In this document: in pieces, positions 1,105-11,758 of the stretch | How positions within the stretch are numbered: the stretch's first letter is position 1 | Layout: each line of letters starts with the position of its first letter | Assembly (NCBI GenBank): GCA_001803565.1 | Contig: MHDQ01000307.1 | Coordinates: forward strand, 1 to 16,380 | Source of the DNA: Nitrospinae bacterium RIFCSPLOWO2_12_FULL_45_22 | Lineage (GTDB): Bacteria > 2-12-FULL-45-22 | Reading direction: 5' to 3' | Length of the DNA: 16,380 bases | Made by a program: the position numbers and the translations under genes | Notes under the pieces: generated by a model | Seen by the model: the letters and a program-made list of their open reading frames with translations, nothing else | Databases searched by the model: none | What the model was told of the DNA's origin: nothing

Positions 1105-3318
1105 ATGACCGATTTGAGATCCAATATATTTTATAAAATAGTAATAATAGTTACCCTGTCAATATATGCAGCTTATCTTACTTATCGCCTCCTTTATACC
1201 ATCAATCCAGAAGCCCTTATTTTTTCTATAGTCTTTTACTTTGCCGAGCTTTATGGATTAGTGGCCCTCTTTCTATATTTTTTCCAGATGTGGGATTTTC
1301 CCCATAGAGAAGTTAATCTCCCAGAGCAGGGGCTCAGGGTGGCTGCTCTCATTCCCACCTACAATGAGGATATCTCGGTCATACGGAAGACAGCCCTTGC
1401 CTGTATGAATATGGATTATCCCCATGATACGTACATTCTTGATGATGGGGCAAGGCCGAGGGTAAGAGAGCTTGCGCATGAGATTGGCTGCAAGTATTTA
1501 GAGCGTCAGACTAGGATAGGAGCTAAGGCCGGGAACCTTAATCATGCTATTCAGCAGATTGATGCTGATTTCTTTGCCATCTTTGACAGCGATTATGTTC
1601 CCTATCCACATTTCCTTATAAAAACCCTAGGTTTTTTCAAAAACTCCCAGGTTGCTTTTGTTCAAACACCCCAACATTACTATAACATAGATTCCTTTAC
1701 CTTTCGTTATAGCCAAAAAAAACAAAGAATCTGGAACGAGCAAGAAGTGTTTTATCGCCTCATGATGAGTGGGAGGGATTACTGGAACTCCACCTTTTTT
1801 GTTGGAACTGCCGCTATTTTAAGAAAGGAAGCCCTTGAGAGCATTGGGGGGGTTGCAACAGAGACGATTACGGAAGATTTGCACACAACGATAAGGCTTT
1901 ACAAGAAGGGCTGGAAGGGCATATACCATAATGAGGTCTTGGCCAGTGGCCTTTCCCCTATGGATATAACAACCTATCAAACCCAAAAGCTGAGGTGGGC
2001 GTACGGAAACATAAGTGTGATCTTCTATGACAACCCCATTCTGGCGAAAGGGCTTACCCTTCCGCAAAGAATATGTTTTTTTGCCACTTGCTTCGGCTGG
2101 ACTGTAGGATTTTCCAAGGCTATATATTTCATATCCCCAGGTGTTCTTCTCCTTACCGGTATGTATCCCATCGCCAATTTCGATATGGAATTTATTATTA
2201 TCTACCTGACTTTTCTATTGACTGTATTAAGTGGTTTCAAGATCGCAAGCCGGGGCTTTGGGAAGGTTTTTAGGGATGAAGAGTATAACATGCTCAATTT
2301 TTTCATCCTGATGAGGGCTACTTTAAGAGCAATATTCAGACGAAAAAGCGAATACAAAGTTACCGTGAAAGACGCGGCCTTACCCATTTCCCTCCTCTAT
2401 CTGATTCCCCAGTTTTTCGTTCTCCTTACCTCTTACATTGGAATTAACTGGGGTTTATTCAAACTCTATTTCCATATTTCTCAAGATTATAAAGGCCTCG
2501 GTATCGCATCTTTCTGGGCTTTCGTGAATGGCTTCTTGGCCTTTTCGATTGTCCGGGGCGTAACAAAGCCATATCATGGGAGGAGGCACTTCCGAATTCC
2601 TGAATCCCTGCCCCTATACGTTTACCAGGGTAATGAGAGATTTATCGGGTGGACTGGCAACATAAACGAGAGAGGGGTTTCCCTACTTAGTTTATCCCCT
2701 CTTGATCTTAGCCGGGATGTTAAGCTCGAGATCATTATTGGTACAGAGGTGGTGAAGTGTGAAGGGGAGATTGTTTATGAAAACATAAGAAAGACCAATA
2801 AAATTTACTCTTACGGAATAAAATTACGAAACCTTACCCCGGTCCAAGAAAACATCATAATTTCCCACTGCTTCAATGTGGCCCTACCCAGGCTATTCAG
2901 GAACTTCGGGGCCCATATATCCTACCTGAATAACTGGGTTAAAATGCTCAGGGCAAAGCGGATAATCAAAAGGAAAGGACAGCGCTACTTTATTCATATC
3001 CTGGCAATAGTCAGGACCGAGGATGGCAGGGAAAGACCCTATGTGACTCATGACTTGAGCTTGAGCGGGGCACTGATTATAACTTATGAGAGTATCTTCC
3101 TCAACAGCTCCCTATACCTTGACCTAATCCTCCCCGTGGGTAAGGTGGGTATGCAGGGAAGGGTGGTAAGAACAGAGGAGCTTTCGCTTGGTAAACAGAC
3201 TACCTATCTCCTGGGAATCAAATTTGAGGATGATAATGATATCTCCCGACAGAGGCTACGGGAGTTCCTGAAGCGAGAAAGCCAAAGGGGATATCTTGAA
3301 TACTTCAGGGTATCATAG
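1105..3318 (+). CDS. bcsA: BcsA-like processive glucan synthase with tandem PilZ domains
   Basis: This inner-membrane GT2 enzyme is expected to polymerise UDP-glucose into beta-1,4-glucan and push the chain into the periplasm. Two N-terminal TM helices (about residues 10-30 and 36-61) precede the catalytic domain, which shows LIPTYNED (82-89), DDG (113-115), KAGNLN (141-146), the DSD metal site (161-163), FFVGT (231-235), TED with the catalytic base (256-258) and QKLRW (294-298). More TM helices follow to about 485. The C-terminus has two PilZ modules: one with RRHFR (493-497) and NINERG (519-524, the conserved Ser replaced by Asn), and one with RKGQR (623-627) and DLSLSG (650-655). The R-box to D/N-box spacing is nearly the same in both (22 and 23). 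At 737 residues the length is normal for BcsA, but two PilZ domains are unusual. The start is fixed by an upstream in-frame stop. It heads the operon, but no bcsB follows. Other beta-glucans (curdlan, mixed-linkage) are possible; the GH8 neighbour favours cellulose. Confidence 0.88.
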   Translation: MTDLRSNIFYKIVIIVTLSIYAAYLTYRLLYTINPEALIFSIVFYFAELYGLVALFLYFFQMWDFPHREVNLPEQGLRVAALIPTYNEDISVIRKTALACMNMDYPHDTYILDDGARPRVRELAHEIGCKYLERQTRIGAKAGNLNHAIQQIDADFFAIFDSDYVPYPHFLIKTLGFFKNSQVAFVQTPQHYYNIDSFTFRYSQKKQRIWNEQEVFYRLMMSGRDYWNSTFFVGTAAILRKEALESIGGVATETITEDLHTTIRLYKKGWKGIYHNEVLASGLSPMDITTYQTQKLRWAYGNISVIFYDNPILAKGLTLPQRICFFATCFGWTVGFSKAIYFISPGVLLLTGMYPIANFDMEFIIIYLTFLLTVLSGFKIASRGFGKVFRDEEYNMLNFFILMRATLRAIFRRKSEYKVTVKDAALPISLLYLIPQFFVLLTSYIGINWGLFKLYFHISQDYKGLGIASFWAFVNGFLAFSIVRGVTKPYHGRRHFRIPESLPLYVYQGNERFIGWTGNINERGVSLLSLSPLDLSRDVKLEIIIGTEVVKCEGEIVYENIRKTNKIYSYGIKLRNLTPVQENIIISHCFNVALPRLFRNFGAHISYLNNWVKMLRAKRIIKRKGQRYFIHILAIVRTEDGRERPYVTHDLSLSGALIITYESIFLNSSLYLDLILPVGKVGMQGRVVRTEELSLGKQTTYLLGIKFEDDNDISRQRLREFLKRESQRGYLEYFRVS

Positions 3319-3352
3319 AAACCATTCATTCGAGAGAACGCAAATTGTGTAT

Positions 3353-3745
3353 ATGGTTAGAAAACCGCTTATCATAGTAGCAAGCCTTACGCTGATTTCC
3401 TTGATCGTATTTTTTATTTTCAACTTGGCATACAGGGATCAGATTCTAGTGAATCAGGCCTTTTTCCGGATGGTAAATATCCCTTCGCCTTCATTGGTCG
3501 ATATTGTCCAGAAGTCTTCCAGGCGGAACCTTTCAAAAGATGATTCTGCCTTCCTCTACCGTCTTTCCACCATTCTTATCAGGAAAAGGATGCGCAGCGA
3601 GGCCATAGAGGTCTTAGGGCGGGCCCTAAAAAATGAGCCCGATAACCCTCAGTTGAAATTGCAACTTGCCACAGAGCTATTCAATGACGGCCGCTATGAA
3701 GAGGTTGAAAGGCTTTTCAATGAACTTCTCTCGCAGGTCAGGTAA
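3353..3745 (+). CDS. Small membrane-anchored TPR protein, in the bcsB position
   Basis: From ATG 3353 the product is 130 residues: MVRKPL, one TM or uncleaved signal anchor (about residues 4-24, IIVASLTLISLIVFFIFNLA), a linker, and a C-terminal region (about 70-130) with TPR-like helices (AIEVLGRALKNEPDNPQLKL, then ELFNDGRYEEVERLFNELL). The start is uncertain. TTG at 3296 lies 5 bases after AAAGGGG and would overlap bcsA by 23 bases; GTG at 3347 is 10 bases after GAGAG; ATG 3353 has no close ribosome site but gives a clean N-terminus. The 3' end overlaps the bcsC-like gene by 26 bases. It probably places a TPR in the periplasm between the synthase and the large scaffold. It is far smaller than BcsB (about 750 residues) and not a fragment of it that I can recognise. 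The family is unknown to me. Confidence 0.75.
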   Translation: MVRKPLIIVASLTLISLIVFFIFNLAYRDQILVNQAFFRMVNIPSPSLVDIVQKSSRRNLSKDDSAFLYRLSTILIRKRMRSEAIEVLGRALKNEPDNPQLKLQLATELFNDGRYEEVERLFNELLSQVR

Positions 3746-6700
3746 ATTGAGAAAGATCGGTTCTCTTATATTAATCATATTTTTTATCTTGAGCTATGGA
3801 AAAGCTTTATCCCAGGAGAAGAAACCCATGGGGAAAAAGGAGTTGAGAGAAAAGGTTATAATAGGAGCGGCAAGAAATGCCTGGAAAATGGGGGATTATC
3901 AACTGGCCGGAGAGCGATACAAAAGGGCTATAGTCCAATATCCTCACATTTGGGAAATAAGGCGGGAGTATGCCTGGGTTCTAAGGGATGCAGGAAAGCT
4001 AATGGATTCCATTGAGATACTGGAAGAGACCTCCAGAGATTTTCCGGACAGGGAAGAGATTCAGTTGGCCCTTGTAGATGCTTATATAGAGATAAAAGAT
4101 TTTCAATCAGCCGCAAAGCTAATGGAGGTCATCATAAAGAAGAATCCTGATGATAAGAATAGGCTCTTGCGCCTTGCGGAACTCCACGAATGGAGCGGCA
4201 ATTATGCTAAGGCAATAGACCTATATCGGCGTATAGGCATTCTTGCCGTTCCGGAGGAAAAGAGAGACATAAATACCCGGTTGGCCAGACTATCCAGGTT
4301 GGCCGGCGATTATGAGGGGGCGAAGTTGCTATATCGGGAACTCATAAGGGCAGAGTTAAGGGATATAGATCTGGTTAAAGAGTTCGTCAGCCTCCTGGAA
4401 GAGATGGGTGAGACAGAGGAGCTGATCGATATTTCCCTTAAGGCCCTTAAGCTCCATCCTGATGATAGAAATCTTTTAATTTCTATTGCCATGGCTTACA
4501 GCACCAGAAAGGATTTCTCCGCTGCGCAGCCCTATCTCGAGAAAGCCTATCATCTCTACCCAACTGATATAGAGATTGTCAAACGTCTCGGATATGTGTT
4601 TCTCTGGCAGAAGAAGTTCCAGAAGGCATCTGAGCTCCTCTACCGGGTTCTTAAGGAAACCCCGAATGATGATACCCTTAGGGAGGATCTGGCCAACTCG
4701 TTGCTCTGGGGTGGGATGCCCCGGGAAGCCCTTACCCATTACAGATCTCTTATAGAAAGACGCCCTGAAAAGCCGATAGAAAGGATGATGCTGGAAGCCC
4801 TTAAGGGCTCAGGCCTCATAAATGACTACCTATCTTTTTCAGATAAATACCTGAAAAAATACCCCGCTGAGGATAAGGTTAGAAGAGAAAGGGCGGGATA
4901 TCTGGCTTCTCGGGGGAGACTCGTTGAGGCAATCCAGGAATATGAGACCCTTGGTAAATCTTATCCATCCGACGAGGCTCTCAGAAGCGAGCTAGCGAAT
5001 CTCTATCTGTCAGCGAAAAGGTATGAGGATGCAGTTGTCATTTTACAAGACCTACTGAAGGCCCATCCCCAAGATGAGCCCTTACGGCTTTCTCTTGCAA
5101 GAGCCCTCTGGTGGAGCGGTAATGAGGATTTTGCCATTACTCATTATAAAATAATATTGAAAAATAGGCCCGATGATAAGTTGAGGAGAGAATTTGCCGA
5201 TGTATTGTTGTCGGCGCATAAATATCGGGAGGCCGAGGAAGTCCTAGGGGTCCTTATCACGTCTTACCCTGACGATATAGAGCTTCTTAAGAAACGGCTG
5301 AGAGCCCTGGAGGCGATGAACAGGTGGAAAGAGGTTGAGTCCGAGTTGAAAGCATTAATAAAAAAGGCGCCAGAATGGCATGATGGGCGTTATAATTTGG
5401 CCAGGCTCTATCAGTGGTGGGGCAGGGGATGGGAAGCCCTTCCCATTATGAAAGAACTCACTGCTCAATTCCCAGGGAATAAAACCTATAACCTTGCCCT
5501 GGGGAGATTGTACCAAGAAATGGGCTATTGTAAGGAAGCTATTCCCATCTTTGAGAGACATATGGGAGAGGGAATTGATTGGAAATCAAGGGGGAGCTAT
5601 ATACACTCGCTAGTGAGCTGCGCACAATTTCCCAGGGCGGATGATCAGCTTGATCGCCTTATGAGAGAAGCGCCCGAAGCCCCTTATGCCCTTATTATCA
5701 AAGGGCAGGTTTTGTTCAGGCTTGGAGATTACGCAGGGGCGAAAGCGTCCTTCCAGAAAATTGTTAATGGCAAAGAATCCGCTAATATTCCCTTCGACGC
5801 TAGAGTTTTTGTCACAGGCAATGATGACCCAAGGCTTGATGCCCTTCTGGGCCTCGTTGATATAGATACCATTTTTGGCAATTATTCCGGCAGCTTGAGC
5901 ATATTGGAAAAATTGTCAGAGTTAAAAGATGAGGGGAACTGGCCTGTCCTTAGCAGATATGTGATGGCCCTTGGCCATGTAGATAGGCTGCCGGAAGCAT
6001 ACGAAATGCTGGATGGATTAAAGAAAGAGAAGGGGGAGCGGATTGATTTTTTGCTTGTTCAAGGAGAACTTCACAATCTAGCCCGCAACTATTATGCAGC
6101 AGAGGCATCATTTCGCAGGGTACTCTCCCTTGAAAAGAGGAATATAAGGGCGCAGATGGGTCTCATTACTTCTTTAGAGGCCCAGAAGAGGTTCAAAGAG
6201 TCCCACGGGGCACTTGAATGCTTATTAGAACAGGTTCCAGGAGAAATCATGATTAGGACTTATTATACTGAACTCCTTATAAAGAACAGGCAGTGGGAGA
6301 AGGCGAGAGCTGAAATAGACACGATAAGGTCTTTGTCGCCCCACTTGCTCGGACCTTATCTGGATTGGTTTTTCCGGGCATCAAGGGACAGGCAGGATGC
6401 CCGGGACTTGCCAGAACAACTCCGATCCCTTCTGTCCAGACACTCCGTGCCTGATGATGCAAAAAATCGGGGGGTTCTTTCCTCGCTTCTCTTTATCCAG
6501 AACAGACTTCTCCACCACGAAAAATATTATGAACTCTACCTCCTCAGCAAACCATTCCTTCCTATCCTCTCCCATGACATGCGCTTCATGAAGAACTATC
6601 AAATTGCCTTTCTTAATAGCGCCAAGGCCAAGGAGGCTCTTCATGATCTGAGCGCGTTGAGAAGCCAGAAAAGAGATATTTGGCTTGATCTCCTTTTGGT

Positions 6701-8540
6701 CAGGGCCTATATTGCGATGGAGAGCAGTAAAGAAGCCTTATCCCTCATGGAGTTATCGAAAGTATCTTCTAAGGGGGTAGACCCTGAAGGCAGGTTTTTC
6801 CTGGCAGAGCTTTTTCTTCTTTTGAAAAGAGGTGATGAGGCTTTGCAAGTTTACGAAGGGTTGCAAAATGGTGAGGAGAAACTGGTATCTGTTGTTTCGG
6901 GCCTGATTTATGCTAATTACCTGCTTGATCAAGAAGAAAAAGCCGAAGCCCTCCTTCATGATTTTTTTCATAGAGAGCAAAATTTCTTCGTCCGGCTCGA
7001 TTTATTTCGTAATCTGTCTCATATGGGTTTAGGTAGGGATGATGGGTTTTACCGGGACTTTGTCGTGAGAGGCATGGAGAAGTTACTGAAGGAAAGGGAC
7101 GAGAAGGATGCGCTTTTCTTCCTGGCCTATAGTCTGTCTATCCATGGGCATTTGCGAGAGGGGCTGGATTGGTTTCGGGTCATGCTCCGGGGAAAAGCGA
7201 CCCCTCTCCCAGTCCTGTGGATGGCAAGGGTATTGAGCTGGAATAAAGATTACAAAGGGTCTATTGAGGCATATAATCGATATCTGGCTTACAATCCTGG
7301 CGACTTCCTGGCCAGGAGAGAAAGGGCAAGGGTCATGGTAGAGAAGGCAAGGGTCATGGGATGGATGATTGATTACCAGGGGTCCCTCCATGCCTATCAC
7401 GATATCGTTGATGATGGTGGCCCCTGGAAGGAAGTTGAGATGGAGGCTAAGGCCAAGGAGTTCCTATTTAAGGGTTGGATTTTGGATGCCCTCCCAAAGT
7501 ATCGCCTTCTCATTGAAGAGGAGCCAGCGAACAGCGAGGCCCTCTTCGAGCTAGGGCAAATATATTCCAAAAAGGGATTCCATGATCTGGCGATAGAATC
7601 TTACCTTAACTTACTCACGGCCTTCCCGGCTCATCCGGAAGGGCTGATAGCCCTGGAGAGACAGAAACTATACAAGAAGCCTTTTCCTGTCCTGGAGTAT
7701 CAGTTAGTGGACCAGGATGGATTTGATGATAAACGTTCCATAGCCTATGATCAGTTGGAAGCGATCTCCTTTTTCTCTCTATCTGATAATCTTAAACTAT
7801 CTGCTAGATACCAGAAGACCTTTTTCCGTTTCGATACTTTCAAGGATTTTTCTGGGGACCAGCCGCGTATTGATATTGAATATCTTCCAAATATTAGATT
7901 ATCCCTAAAGGGCTTTTTCTCCTATCCGGTATATCAAAGGATTAATGAAGAGAATGCCAATTTTGGATTTGGGGCGAGCTATGCCTTTGACCATGGGCTG
8001 GAGGCATCGGCTGGTTACCATCGCGAAGACCTATGGGAGAACGTTAATACCTTACTTTCGAACGTATATTTTGACAGATTTTTTATTGGGGGTAGATACC
8101 TGAACGATCGGTTCCACCTGGATGGACTTGCTTCTTTTTCTTATTATTCAGACGATAATGTCAGGCCTTTCTTTAAGCTTAGGGGAAGCTACGACCTCAT
8201 GAGATTTCCCACGATCCTAAAAGCAATTATTGATTATGAGTTCTTCGACTTCAGGAAGGAGACCTTCTACTTCTCTCCCGATAACTATTCATTGGTGGCT
8301 CCCTATTTTCAGTGGAGGCATTATCTTAATAAGGATTTTTTTCATGAGGCGGATGAGATTTACTATGACCTCCTTGGGGGTTTCCGGATGGATTCCATGG
8401 GTAATTTCTATACAGATTTCCGGGCAGAGGCCCGCTATGAATGGCGCCAGAGGATCGAGGTCGGCCTCAGGGCGCAGTTTATTGATTCGGATGTCTATAG
8501 AGAGCAGAGGGTGGTCTTTTCTGTGGCTTTTAGGTTCTGA
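3720..8540 (+). CDS. bcsC: BcsC-like giant TPR scaffold with outer-membrane beta-barrel
   Basis: The frame is open from 3666, but ATG 3720 is preferred: AAAGG lies 7 bases upstream and the product then begins with a signal peptide (basic MNFSRRSGKLRK, hydrophobic SLILIIFFILSYG, likely cleavage after KALS). The 1606-residue product has about 1290 residues of TPR-type helical repeats (for example FQSAAKLMEVIIKKNPDD, FQKASELLYRVLKETPNDD, YREAEEVLGVLITSYPDD), room for about 30 or more units. A beta-rich domain from about residue 1322 has alternating aromatic/polar strands and ends VAFRF, the C-terminal Phe typical of outer-membrane barrels. This is the layout of BcsC and PgaA: periplasmic TPR scaffold plus export pore. 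E. coli BcsC is near 1157 residues, so this scaffold is markedly longer. A 7-residue in-frame duplication is visible near 7325-7359. It overlaps the preceding gene and sits 7 bases before the GH8 gene. The symbol reflects architecture; sequence identity to BcsC was not measured. Confidence 0.85.
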   Translation: MNFSRRSGKLRKIGSLILIIFFILSYGKALSQEKKPMGKKELREKVIIGAARNAWKMGDYQLAGERYKRAIVQYPHIWEIRREYAWVLRDAGKLMDSIEILEETSRDFPDREEIQLALVDAYIEIKDFQSAAKLMEVIIKKNPDDKNRLLRLAELHEWSGNYAKAIDLYRRIGILAVPEEKRDINTRLARLSRLAGDYEGAKLLYRELIRAELRDIDLVKEFVSLLEEMGETEELIDISLKALKLHPDDRNLLISIAMAYSTRKDFSAAQPYLEKAYHLYPTDIEIVKRLGYVFLWQKKFQKASELLYRVLKETPNDDTLREDLANSLLWGGMPREALTHYRSLIERRPEKPIERMMLEALKGSGLINDYLSFSDKYLKKYPAEDKVRRERAGYLASRGRLVEAIQEYETLGKSYPSDEALRSELANLYLSAKRYEDAVVILQDLLKAHPQDEPLRLSLARALWWSGNEDFAITHYKIILKNRPDDKLRREFADVLLSAHKYREAEEVLGVLITSYPDDIELLKKRLRALEAMNRWKEVESELKALIKKAPEWHDGRYNLARLYQWWGRGWEALPIMKELTAQFPGNKTYNLALGRLYQEMGYCKEAIPIFERHMGEGIDWKSRGSYIHSLVSCAQFPRADDQLDRLMREAPEAPYALIIKGQVLFRLGDYAGAKASFQKIVNGKESANIPFDARVFVTGNDDPRLDALLGLVDIDTIFGNYSGSLSILEKLSELKDEGNWPVLSRYVMALGHVDRLPEAYEMLDGLKKEKGERIDFLLVQGELHNLARNYYAAEASFRRVLSLEKRNIRAQMGLITSLEAQKRFKESHGALECLLEQVPGEIMIRTYYTELLIKNRQWEKARAEIDTIRSLSPHLLGPYLDWFFRASRDRQDARDLPEQLRSLLSRHSVPDDAKNRGVLSSLLFIQNRLLHHEKYYELYLLSKPFLPILSHDMRFMKNYQIAFLNSAKAKEALHDLSALRSQKRDIWLDLLLVRAYIAMESSKEALSLMELSKVSSKGVDPEGRFFLAELFLLLKRGDEALQVYEGLQNGEEKLVSVVSGLIYANYLLDQEEKAEALLHDFFHREQNFFVRLDLFRNLSHMGLGRDDGFYRDFVVRGMEKLLKERDEKDALFFLAYSLSIHGHLREGLDWFRVMLRGKATPLPVLWMARVLSWNKDYKGSIEAYNRYLAYNPGDFLARRERARVMVEKARVMGWMIDYQGSLHAYHDIVDDGGPWKEVEMEAKAKEFLFKGWILDALPKYRLLIEEEPANSEALFELGQIYSKKGFHDLAIESYLNLLTAFPAHPEGLIALERQKLYKKPFPVLEYQLVDQDGFDDKRSIAYDQLEAISFFSLSDNLKLSARYQKTFFRFDTFKDFSGDQPRIDIEYLPNIRLSLKGFFSYPVYQRINEENANFGFGASYAFDHGLEASAGYHREDLWENVNTLLSNVYFDRFFIGGRYLNDRFHLDGLASFSYYSDDNVRPFFKLRGSYDLMRFPTILKAIIDYEFFDFRKETFYFSPDNYSLVAPYFQWRHYLNKDFFHEADEIYYDLLGGFRMDSMGNFYTDFRAEARYEWRQRIEVGLRAQFIDSDVYREQRVVFSVAFRF
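7325..7359 (+). repeat. In-frame 21-base tandem duplication inside the scaffold gene
   Basis: GGCAAGGGTCATGG occurs at 7325-7338 and again at 7346-7359, exactly 21 bases (7 codons) apart, giving ARVMVEK then ARVMGWM in the protein. It lengthens a helix boundary between TPR units without breaking the frame and looks like recent slippage. Confidence 0.6.
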
Positions 8541-8547
8541 CCCTTAA

Positions 8548-9693
8548 ATGAAGATCATAATATCGGTTTTACTGATCATGTGTTTCCTATTAGGATGCGA
8601 GAAGAGAATGACGGGACTAAAACCCGGAACCCTAAAAGAAATGCTATCCCTTGCCTGGGAGGATTATAAAAAATCCTATATAAAGCCTGACGGTAGAGTA
8701 GTACGCCCCCTGGATGGGGGGGATACTGTATCAGAGGGCCAGGCCTATGCCATGCTTCTGGCCGTTTGGATGGATGACCGACCAGTTTTTGAGAGAGGCC
8801 TGGAATGGAGCAAACGCCATCTGTCCCGGGAAAAGGAGAAGGGGGATCACCTGTTAGCATGGCATTGGAGTGAAGGAGGGGTGACTGATTGGAACTCGGC
8901 TTCTGATGCGGACCTGGATTATGCCCTATCCTTACTTCTTGCTTACCGAAGATGGGGTGAAGAAGCATATAAGAAATGGGCTATAGAGGTCATGGAGAGT
9001 ATTCTTGCTGAAGAGACGATGCCGGACATGAAGGGTAATCTTTATTTGCTCCCTGGGACATGGGGGAGACTGGATAATGGCGCCTTCGTAACCAATCCAT
9101 CATACTACTCCCCTGCTTGGTATCGCCTATTCTTTTCCCTTACAGGAGATAAGCGATGGATGAATCTTCTGGAAGGGGCTTATCAAGTTATAGAGAAGGT
9201 TTCCATGCGCCTGGGTAAAGAACCGGGTGTAGGGCTGATTCCTGATTGGTGCATAGTAAAGCCCAATTTAGATACTGCTCCCGCCGATGGAATGAGCTCT
9301 CGCTACGGCTGGGATGCGATAAGAGTTGTCTGGCGGCTAGGAATAGACTGGACATGGTTCAAAGAAGAGCGGGCCAGGAGATATCTCGGGGTGGTTCTTA
9401 AGAAATTCTACGAGAAGGAGTGGTGGAGAAGGGGGGGTAAGGTTTATATAGAATATCATTACCAGGGAAGCCCCTACAAGGAGTATGAAAGCCCAGCTTC
9501 CTATTTAGCGGCCGCCTTCACCGCCTTTGTTGGAGAGGATAAAGATCTTATGGGAGAATTTTTGCATAAGGCATACGAATTTGGTGTCATCGGTGAAGAT
9601 GGTTTGCTCTTCGAGAAAAGAAAAGACTACTATTCTGACAGCCTTTCGCTCCTGTTTCTTACTCTATTAGCAGAAGCTGCAATAAGCTTCTGA
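8548..9693 (+). CDS. bcsZ: GH8 endo-beta-glucanase lipoprotein (BcsZ-like)
   Basis: This 381-residue product is a glycoside hydrolase family 8 enzyme, expected to cleave internal beta-1,4 links in the growing polymer in the periplasm. It begins with a lipoprotein signal (MKIIISVLLIMCFLLGC, lipobox LLGC, lipidated Cys17); E. coli BcsZ by contrast is soluble. TVSEGQAYAML carries the presumed general acid Glu63. The GH8 signature ASDADLDYALSLLLAYRRW starts at residue 118, with Asp122. NPSYYSP (183-189), LIPDW (230-234) and RYGWDAIRV (252-260, Asp256) match conserved BcsZ blocks, so it should be active. Length is typical. It starts 7 bases after the scaffold gene and lacks a strong ribosome site, so it is probably coupled and is the last gene of the tight operon. 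GH8 also includes chitosanases and lichenases, so substrate is inferred from context. Confidence 0.92.
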   Translation: MKIIISVLLIMCFLLGCEKRMTGLKPGTLKEMLSLAWEDYKKSYIKPDGRVVRPLDGGDTVSEGQAYAMLLAVWMDDRPVFERGLEWSKRHLSREKEKGDHLLAWHWSEGGVTDWNSASDADLDYALSLLLAYRRWGEEAYKKWAIEVMESILAEETMPDMKGNLYLLPGTWGRLDNGAFVTNPSYYSPAWYRLFFSLTGDKRWMNLLEGAYQVIEKVSMRLGKEPGVGLIPDWCIVKPNLDTAPADGMSSRYGWDAIRVVWRLGIDWTWFKEERARRYLGVVLKKFYEKEWWRRGGKVYIEYHYQGSPYKEYESPASYLAAAFTAFVGEDKDLMGEFLHKAYEFGVIGEDGLLFEKRKDYYSDSLSLLFLTLLAEAAISF

Positions 9694-9789: not shown

Positions 9790-9847
9790 GAGCTAGTGTT
9801 AGCAAAGGTGCTCCTTGATTTCTTCTCTTAAGAAGGAGTGTATAGGA

Positions 9848-11758
9848 ATGGCACATAGATTCTTCAGGGAGATAAAAGGGTTTATTTGTATCTTCTATAT
9901 TGCTCTTATTACACTCGTAATCTCAAGGACTATCCTCCAAACGATCGGCAACATGTACATTGAGGAAGGACTTTTCGTGCTGGTTGCCCGACTCATGATA
10001 GACGAGCTTTATAATGCTATCCTCGAAACATGGCCTCTCCTGGTAATCATCTTAGTTTTGCAAGTGGTTCTTTCCATCTATTTCAACCGTGATTTCACCA
10101 GCTCACAAAAATGTATGGATGATAAAAAGGTGGAAGAGAAACGATACAGATCTATTCTGACCGTGTCCACAGTGTTTGCAGTCCCTATCTACCTGGGAAT
10201 TAGATGGATAGTTGGCTACAGACACCCGGTGATCTGGGTGTATTGTGGGGCAATATTGATACTGATTATTGCAGGGACATTGTCATGGTCGGCTATTTTC
10301 TCAAAGAAAAGGAGGATGAGAAAGGATGATAGGGAAGGAAAATTACATTTTAAATCTCTTCTCAGGCTTCACTACATGCTTTTTCTTACTCTTCTGATTT
10401 TTTTCCCTCCCTGGATGATCCTGATGAGTGCAAGACCTCTAAAGGAAAAAAATATTCTTCTCATAGTAATAGACACTCTCCGTGCAAACCACCTTGGATG
10501 TTATGGTTACAAGCGTTCTACAACTCCAAACATCAACAGGCTTGCTAAAGGTGGTGTGTTGTTTACTAATGCATATTCACAGTCCTCATGGACCAAAACA
10601 TCCATTGCCTCGCTTATGACAGGGGCTTATCCCTATCGTCACAACGTTTTCTACGAGAATGGCGACTATTCCGCTCTTCCAAAAGAGGTAGTAACCATTG
10701 CCGAGGTTTTACTTAACTCTGGTTATAAAACAGTAGGGTTCTCTGCAAACCCGCATATAATTCCTGAATTCGGATTCAGCCAGGGGTTCTCTTCGTTCCA
10801 ATATGATATCCTTTGGCGTCAAAACAGCACTGAGGTCGTTACGGAGATAGTGATAAATTATCTAAGGAGGCGGAAAGGATTGAAAAGTACATTTATGTAT
10901 GTTCATTACCTTGACCCGCACGATACCTATACTCCATCATTGCCATGCGAGGAATTTTCCCATGCTTACCAACCAGATAATCCTGCTGTAAGAGATGGCG
11001 AGGCTTATACCCTTTCTGGAGCACGCTCTTTAAAGACGAAACTGCATATGGGTGTCATACCAACACCCTATCCTATGAGCAGTAATGATCTTGAGTTTCT
11101 TATGGCTCTATACGATTGCGAGATAAGTCAAGTGGATGAAGGGGTCGGGAGGATTCTTGCAACTCTCGAAGACATCGGCGCCATGGATAATACTATCATA
11201 ATCGTGACCTCAGATCATGGTGAGGGATTCCTGGAACACGGCATGCTAACGCATGGATACCAGCTCTTTAACGAGACTGTAAAGATTCCACTGATCATCT
11301 ACGAACCCGGCTCTCCATACAGATCATTGCGATATGACAATCCCGTTGAGCTGATCGGAGTTTTCCCCACCATCCTTTCTCTTCTAGGTATCACTTTCAG
11401 TGGGGATATAGATGGCAATATCCTGCCTCCTTTCGAGTCTTCCTCGACATCCCAGGATGATTCGATTGCTTTTGGTATTACCCGCTTCAGGAAGCAAGAT
11501 AAGGCTTTTCTCCTGCAGGGAGATTGGAAAATAATCAGGGATTTTGTTAAAGCAGAAACGTCTCTTTTCAATATAGCGGAGGATCCGCTAGAAAAGGTCG
11601 ATGTAGTGGATGATAACCCGGATATAGTCAACAATATGTCGAGACGCATGGTGAAGATTATAAGACGCCCTATGAAGCCTATCTCATCGGTTGGATTTAG
11701 CCAGCCGGATAATCCCATTCTCAAGGAAAGGCTTAGATCACTTGGCTACCTCTACTGA
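9848..11758 (+). CDS. Five-TM alkaline-phosphatase-superfamily (sulfatase-like) enzyme, Thr nucleophile
   Basis: ATG 9848 is chosen because AAGGAG (9833-9838) lies 9 bases upstream, giving 636 residues. About 200 N-terminal residues hold five TM helices with basic loops after TM2 and TM4 (NRDFTSSQKCMDDKK..., SKKRRMRKDDREGK), so by the positive-inside rule the C-terminal catalytic domain is periplasmic. That domain is PF00884-type: NILLIVIDTLRAN (Asp209), SWTKTSIASLMTGAYPYRH, TSDHGEGF (Asp456, His457) and THGYQLFNETVKIPLIIYEP. In the nucleophile motif the Cys/Ser of true sulfatases (C/S-x-P-x-R) aligns with Thr249, so formylglycine formation is not expected. Thr is used by LtaS and EptA-type phosphotransferases. 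The topology also resembles BcsG, which adds phosphoethanolamine to cellulose (with Ser). The C-terminal LFNIAEDPLEKVDVVDDNP is sulfatase-like, so donor and acceptor are open. It follows the GH8 gene by 154 bases. Confidence 0.8.
   Translation: MAHRFFREIKGFICIFYIALITLVISRTILQTIGNMYIEEGLFVLVARLMIDELYNAILETWPLLVIILVLQVVLSIYFNRDFTSSQKCMDDKKVEEKRYRSILTVSTVFAVPIYLGIRWIVGYRHPVIWVYCGAILILIIAGTLSWSAIFSKKRRMRKDDREGKLHFKSLLRLHYMLFLTLLIFFPPWMILMSARPLKEKNILLIVIDTLRANHLGCYGYKRSTTPNINRLAKGGVLFTNAYSQSSWTKTSIASLMTGAYPYRHNVFYENGDYSALPKEVVTIAEVLLNSGYKTVGFSANPHIIPEFGFSQGFSSFQYDILWRQNSTEVVTEIVINYLRRRKGLKSTFMYVHYLDPHDTYTPSLPCEEFSHAYQPDNPAVRDGEAYTLSGARSLKTKLHMGVIPTPYPMSSNDLEFLMALYDCEISQVDEGVGRILATLEDIGAMDNTIIIVTSDHGEGFLEHGMLTHGYQLFNETVKIPLIIYEPGSPYRSLRYDNPVELIGVFPTILSLLGITFSGDIDGNILPPFESSSTSQDDSIAFGITRFRKQDKAFLLQGDWKIIRDFVKAETSLFNIAEDPLEKVDVVDDNPDIVNNMSRRMVKIIRRPMKPISSVGFSQPDNPILKERLRSLGYLY

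Follow-up and report, generated by a model that had tools for sequence, protein, structure and literature searches.

The 16,380-nucleotide stretch of DNA analysed here, referred to as the window (contig MHDQ01000307.1 of Nitrospinae bacterium RIFCSPLOWO2_12_FULL_45_22), contains at positions 1105–9693 a tight operon of four plus-strand genes, encoding a cellulose synthase-type enzyme, a small protein with a transmembrane (TM) helix and tetratricopeptide repeats (TPRs), a TPR-barrel exporter and a hydrolase from glycoside hydrolase family 8 (GH8). The operon probably encodes a synthase-dependent β-glucan secretion system that responds to cyclic di-GMP (c-di-GMP) and works without BcsB, with the TM-TPR protein in a tethering role. 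The first gene (1105–3318, plus strand) encodes a 737-residue BcsA-family GT2 synthase, recognised by Pfam, NCBIfam and PDB matches and by its motifs, and is followed, at the usual place of bcsB, by the gene for the 130-residue TM-TPR subunit (3353–3745, plus strand), comprising a signal-anchor helix and TPRs. The third product (3720–8540, plus strand; 1606 residues) has a signal peptide, a TPR solenoid and a C-terminal 16-strand outer-membrane barrel, and the fourth (8548–9693, plus strand; 381 residues) is a GH8 glucanase with the lipobox LLGC, identified by a GH8 match and by residues aligned with those of CelA. The synthase and TM-TPR genes are separated by 34 bp, the TM-TPR and exporter genes overlap by 26 bp, and 7 bp separate the exporter and GH8 genes. 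A prediction previously made from the sequence alone (the original prediction) had described closely packed BcsA-, BcsC- and BcsZ-type genes with a TM and TPR protein of ~130 residues in the bcsB position, and all four genes are indeed found there.

Absence of BcsB and phylogeny of the synthase

No match to the BcsB profile PF03170 was found in the window or the whole window genome, even at E ≤ 10, nor in the 21 genomes whose synthases are closest among the matches listed, nor in nine further Planctomycetota carrying this type of synthase, two of which (G290 and G385) are represented by contigs of 4.03 and 4.08 Mb that are essentially whole genomes. The same profile gave positive controls: of 50 less closely related genomes, 27 yielded a full-length BcsB, and in four Planctomycetota whose synthases are classical it detected BcsB adjoining the synthase. 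One match, at L042, spanned only ~130 of 606 positions and was set aside. An ordinary BcsB-dependent cellulose operon, with bcsB located elsewhere or lost in gaps of the metagenome-assembled genome, would fit the state of the assembly (a 3.67-Mb draft, 85% complete, in 321 contigs, with the operon on contig 307), but loss through incompleteness was rejected as the gene is also absent from the relatives, including the two with a single contig of ~4 Mb, and both the position of the synthase in the trees and its N-terminal helices are unlike those of BcsB-dependent enzymes. This explanation is thus highly improbable.

In a first phylogenetic tree of 84 synthases, a single supported clade contained every sequence from a genome with full-length BcsB. 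The window synthase joined sequences from Methylomirabilota and Planctomycetota with a support of 100. A second tree included the four Planctomycetota that encode BcsB, and sequences that were long or doubtful were omitted, L042 among them; here one branch divided the BcsB-positive from the BcsB-negative synthases (approximate likelihood ratio test, SH-aLRT 99). Constraining the window clade to group with only BcsB-positive sequences was rejected (approximately unbiased test, p-AU 3e-35). Both trees were quick searches, with most sequences taken from among the matches listed and incomplete sampling. The original prediction had asked whether bcsB is consistently absent from homologous operons and had named two outcomes that would speak against it, a bcsB gene co-occurring elsewhere in the genome and a synthase grouping with BcsB-dependent enzymes; PF03170 was negative in the relatives with the controls positive, no such gene was found, and the synthase stands apart in the tree. 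Judged from these sequence comparisons, the absence of BcsB is not accidental.

A second BcsB-less arrangement was observed among BcsB-negative clades, where PilZ-type GT2 synthases from Proteobacteria, Nitrospirota, Myxococcota and Gemmatimonadota adjoin a gene encoding BcsS (PF17036) or a BcsS-like protein (L028, L033, L034, L035, L036, L041, L045, L088 and others; tested with Pfam in L028 and L033–L035, assigned by similarity, in some cases weak, in the other loci). As these clades are also BcsB-negative, the absence of BcsB is broader than the window class, and the partners differ.

Architecture of the synthase

The synthase was most similar to BcsA, with E. coli BcsA (PDB 7lby) matching residues 12–509 at an E-value of 4e-82. 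It scored 365 bits against the CelA profile TIGR03030, far below the equivalog threshold of 699, and only 59 bits against the PgaC profile TIGR03937 (cut-off 422), and is thus not of the PgaC type. Two TM helices are followed by the GT2 domain, further TM helices, a gating loop and two PilZ domains in tandem, with the motifs DDG (113), DSD (161), TED (256) and QKLRW (294) in the GT2 domain and KVTVK (418) in the gating loop. A PilZ domain had been predicted, and it is present, though as two domains rather than one. The first retains RxxxR (RRHFR, 493) but has asparagine in place of the serine of D/NxSxxG (NINERG, 519), while both motifs are kept in the second (RKGQR, 623; DLSLSG, 650); the same pattern was found in the synthases of L022 and L023. 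Two sets of PilZ-like motifs (RRAFR/NLSEDG and RRTLR/DMSFTG) were also observed in a synthase of Nitrospira moscoviensis (L071, 9917–12199), and with its occurrence in the Nitrospira clade the tandem PilZ arrangement may be older or may have arisen twice.

The N-terminus distinguishes the window clade from the BcsB-positive synthases. The latter have at least 45 residues ahead of the segment with which the window synthase starts, mostly with two more predicted TM helices, and 3–7 TM helices before the GT domain (28 sequences, without L042), whereas the synthases of the window clade have an N-terminal extension of ~0 residues and 1–2 TM helices before this domain. In the E. coli complex, the tail anchor of BcsB sits in a groove formed by TM1–3 of BcsA (PMC11470070), and as the N-terminal helices are missing, most of this groove would be absent in the window clade. 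Four operons (L022, L102, L155 and L156) encode two synthases each.

The TM-TPR protein as probable partner of the synthase

The window TM-TPR protein has a single TM helix, the N-terminal signal anchor, and TPRs predicted to be periplasmic. A free TM-TPR gene is located directly 3' of a synthase gene in seven relatives (L022, L102/L023, L154, L155, L156, L157 and L158), and the anchors of these proteins share the motif Y-[RHK]-x-x-[IL]-[IL]-[LVI] immediately after the helix. In ten planctomycetes (L025, L027, L029–L032, L037 and L160–L162), a TM helix followed by a series of TPRs is instead fused to the C-terminus of the synthase, after its second PilZ domain (helix measured in L025, L027, L029–L032 and L037), and in a member of the Verrucomicrobiota (L026) the synthase gene is followed by a TM-TPR gene encoding 559 residues. 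One of the fused forms, L030, comes from Blastopirellula marina, a planctomycete in culture. The gene adjacency in the relatives together with the fusion in planctomycetes argues for placing the TM-TPR protein at the synthase. The free and fused modules probably share an origin, although sequence comparison does not prove it.

Alternatively, the synthase could need no accessory subunit, as is the case for plant CesA and RiGT2; the TM-TPR protein would then serve only in scaffolding or assembling the exporter and have no BcsB-like role. In yeast, RiGT2 shows activity in the absence of BcsB (PMC10374906), it shares with the window synthase the lack of the first helices, and no TM-TPR protein was seen in the other BcsB-negative clades, in Proteobacteria and Nitrospirota, which have BcsS. 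The repeated position of the TM-TPR gene after the synthase gene and the fusion of the two argue instead for a function at the synthase, and we consider independent action of the synthase unlikely.

The exporter

The modelled barrel (345 residues, 16 strands, pLDDT 89) was compared to known folds using VIA-align, giving Z scores of 27.1 for BcsC, 26.4 for PelB and 25.8 for PgaA, with the next entry at 17.4, while Foldseek placed it closest to PgaA. As the three scores are nearly tied and well above the next, the protein is a synthase-dependent polysaccharide porin of the BcsC, PelB or PgaA type. The window barrel gave no match to BCSC_C (PF05420), although the predicted model has the BCSC_C fold; the predicted BcsC-type exporter is thus supported by its fold, but not by the profile, and PelB and PgaA fit about equally well. 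The exporter gene adjoins or lies near the synthase gene in most loci, in G385 at a distance of ~25 kb, and was not found next to the synthases of L030 or L024 (the L024 contig stops after the synthase gene).

Two gene orders were found in Planctomycetota, with four loci encoding synthase-BcsB-GH8-BcsC and others synthase-TM-TPR-BcsC-GH8. The exporters of the two versions share 46–47% sequence identity over ~1060 C-terminal residues (L022 or L157 compared to L165), but their first ~150 residues do not align; the TM-TPR version starts with TPRs (L157) and the BcsB version with SPOR domains (L166). In the latter (L166, 4129–8100), two SPOR domains were identified using Pfam, suggesting peptidoglycan binding by the BcsB-type planctomycete BcsC; the start of the exporters in L163–L165 was judged alike by eye. 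In E. coli, BcsB tethers the first TPR of the exporter (PMC11379886), and a change of the exporter N-terminus along with a change of partner would fit a replaced docking, without being proof of it. Simple loss of a BcsB-docking TPR from the exporter N-terminus was rejected, as in Planctomycetota it is the BcsB type that starts with SPOR domains and the TM-TPR type that starts with TPRs. The comparison likewise gave no support for the TM-TPR protein being a split-off N-terminus of the BcsB-type exporter.

The original prediction saw the layout as closer to that of the Pga system, and a Pga-like system, in which the polymer would consist of amino sugars and the small protein would correspond to PgaD, would agree with the gene types in outline, which resemble pgaABCD, and with the Foldseek result. 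This likeness is less well supported than was thought: VIA-align nearly ties the three porins, the synthase is far closer to BcsA than to PgaC (365 versus 59 bits), and a GH8 enzyme takes the place of PgaB, whose deacetylase/hydrolase domain was not found in the operon, GH8 being the only hydrolase gene. The TM-TPR protein, with one TM helix and a periplasmic TPR region, was not PgaD-like by any test run. A Pga or poly-N-acetylglucosamine identity was thus rejected, with synthase, hydrolase and small partner all from other families, and a Pga-like system is very improbable.

The GH8 enzyme and the polymer

The GH8 gene product matched PF01270 with 164 bits and the BcsZ equivalog with 142 bits, below the cut-off of 299, and is a predicted lipoprotein. 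Its residues Glu63, Asp120 and Asp256 are conserved and align with Glu95, Asp152 and Asp278 of CelA. A GH8 gene was found in the window and in L022, L102, L154, L155, L156 and L157, and is absent from most of the fused systems. We infer that the polymer is a glucan, most likely cellulose-like.

Possible regulation by c-di-GMP

A protein with receiver, GGDEF and HD domains is encoded between the TM-TPR protein and the exporter in L102 and L156, and L158 has genes of a size similar to this insert. Together with the PilZ motifs, the GGDEF and HD genes within the operons of two relatives fit a putative control by c-di-GMP.

Proposed mechanism

Architecture, fusion and comparison with known systems suggest the following mechanism. 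Once its PilZ domains are engaged by c-di-GMP, the synthase would polymerise UDP-glucose, and the growing chain would be extruded via the TM channel of the synthase itself. The TM-TPR protein would be anchored beside the synthase, its periplasmic TPRs docking to, or continuing, the TPR solenoid of the exporter, which would guide the chain to the outer-membrane barrel, and the GH8 enzyme would trim stalled chains. The TM-TPR protein would thereby take the tethering role of BcsB, and perhaps also the stabilising role of the BcsB tail anchor; most likely, it links the synthase to the BcsC/PgaA/PelB-type exporter instead of BcsB. The further step, in which it is a true replacement of BcsB, its helix activating or stabilising the synthase as the tail anchor does and its TPRs forming an unbroken relay with the exporter, is put forward tentatively, at somewhat less than an even chance.

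Several points weigh against the proposed system. PF03170 would fail to detect a strongly diverged BcsB, and the TM counts come from plain hydropathy only. Lichenases, xylanases and chitosanases are likewise members of the GH8 family, and the first PilZ domain of the window synthase lacks the serine of D/NxSxxG. The free and fused TM-TPR modules align weakly outside the anchor and could be convergent, TPRs being easily matched. The model of a fusion is of middling confidence (pTM 0.52, with pLDDT <50 for linker and TM helix), and contact between the TM-TPR protein, the synthase and the exporter is deduced solely from gene order and fusion. Finally, RiGT2, although a PilZ synthase that lacks BcsB, produces a mixed-linkage glucan and showed no response to c-di-GMP (PMC10374906).

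Comparison with known systems

The window operon shares with the Bcs systems of E. coli, Rhodobacter and Komagataeibacter (BcsA-BcsB-BcsC-BcsZ) a BcsA-family synthase with its catalytic motifs, gating loop and PilZ domain, an exporter with TPRs and a 16-strand barrel of the same fold, and a GH8 enzyme. It differs in lacking BcsB and those N-terminal helices which in E. coli, together with TM3, make up the groove for the BcsB anchor, in having a second PilZ domain and a TM-TPR protein in the place of BcsB, in a barrel below Pfam detection as BCSC_C, and in a GH8 enzyme predicted to be a lipoprotein. The cyanobacterial type IV system also comprises a BcsB-less PilZ synthase (XcsA) and an endoglucanase, but XcsA is partnered by the HlyD-like XcsB, with export proposed to proceed via TolC (PMC12430437), whereas the window encodes TPR proteins and a TPR-barrel; no HlyD domain was found among the window genes scanned, and this type was rejected. 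Clostridial CcsA-CcsB and RiGT2 likewise have a PilZ GT2 synthase without a homologous BcsB, but they lack a TPR-barrel in the outer membrane. The clostridial CcsB resembles CBM11, and the hydrolase of that system belongs to GH5 (PMC7710045), while the product of RiGT2 is a (1,3;1,4)-β-glucan (PMC10374906). The Pga system (PgaABCD) has in common with the window a TPR-barrel porin of closely similar barrel fold and a small membrane partner of the synthase, its synthase, hydrolase and small partner being of other families.

The original prediction of a distinct class is supported by the conserved gene set in relatives and the separate position in the tree, though BcsB-less glucan synthases are already known from cyanobacteria, clostridia and Romboutsia; the TM-TPR version is a further variant among those with other partners. 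No TM-TPR layout was found in the literature on bcsB-less operons or on planctomycete cellulose genes with TPRs, searched mostly outside subscription journals, and an operon survey that expects loci to hold bcsA and bcsB reports no such class in the part of its text available to us (PMC7112194).

Genomic context

In an rpoB tree, of which only the placement of the window genome was used as some sequences were in wrong frames, this genome formed a group with G001 and G064 that lay close to Nitrospirota and Proteobacteria and away from Planctomycetota, and the operon may have been transferred between phyla. Directly upstream of the synthase gene, a hydrophobic 18-residue open reading frame (MLLLAILWLLLALGSGLI; 1047–1103) with the strong Shine-Dalgarno sequence AAAGGAG stops one base short of the ATG of the synthase gene; upstream of the relatives' synthases checked, no equivalent was seen. 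Downstream of the GH8 gene, positions 9815–11758 encode a membrane protein with N-terminal TM helices and a domain of the sulfatase/alkaline phosphatase type, which has threonine (WTKTS) at the usual position of the sulfatase cysteine, as in phosphoethanolamine or phosphoglycerol transferases. A gene of this type was not found downstream of GH8 in L022 or L102.

Implications

BcsB is regarded as essential for bacterial cellulose synthesis. If the TM-TPR protein fully replaces it, the glucan would cross the periplasm on TPRs alone, and the operons would represent a separate glucan secretion class spanning several phyla (the window lineage, Planctomycetota, Verrucomicrobiota and probably Methylomirabilota). 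Surveys that require both bcsA and bcsB, as was the case in PMC7112194, would miss this class. For structural work, the fused synthase-TM-TPR forms provide targets made of one chain, and with both operon versions occurring within one phylum, Planctomycetota, the system offers a natural experiment on which functions of BcsB are needed: as tail anchor for synthase activity, as exporter tether or as guide for the glucan.

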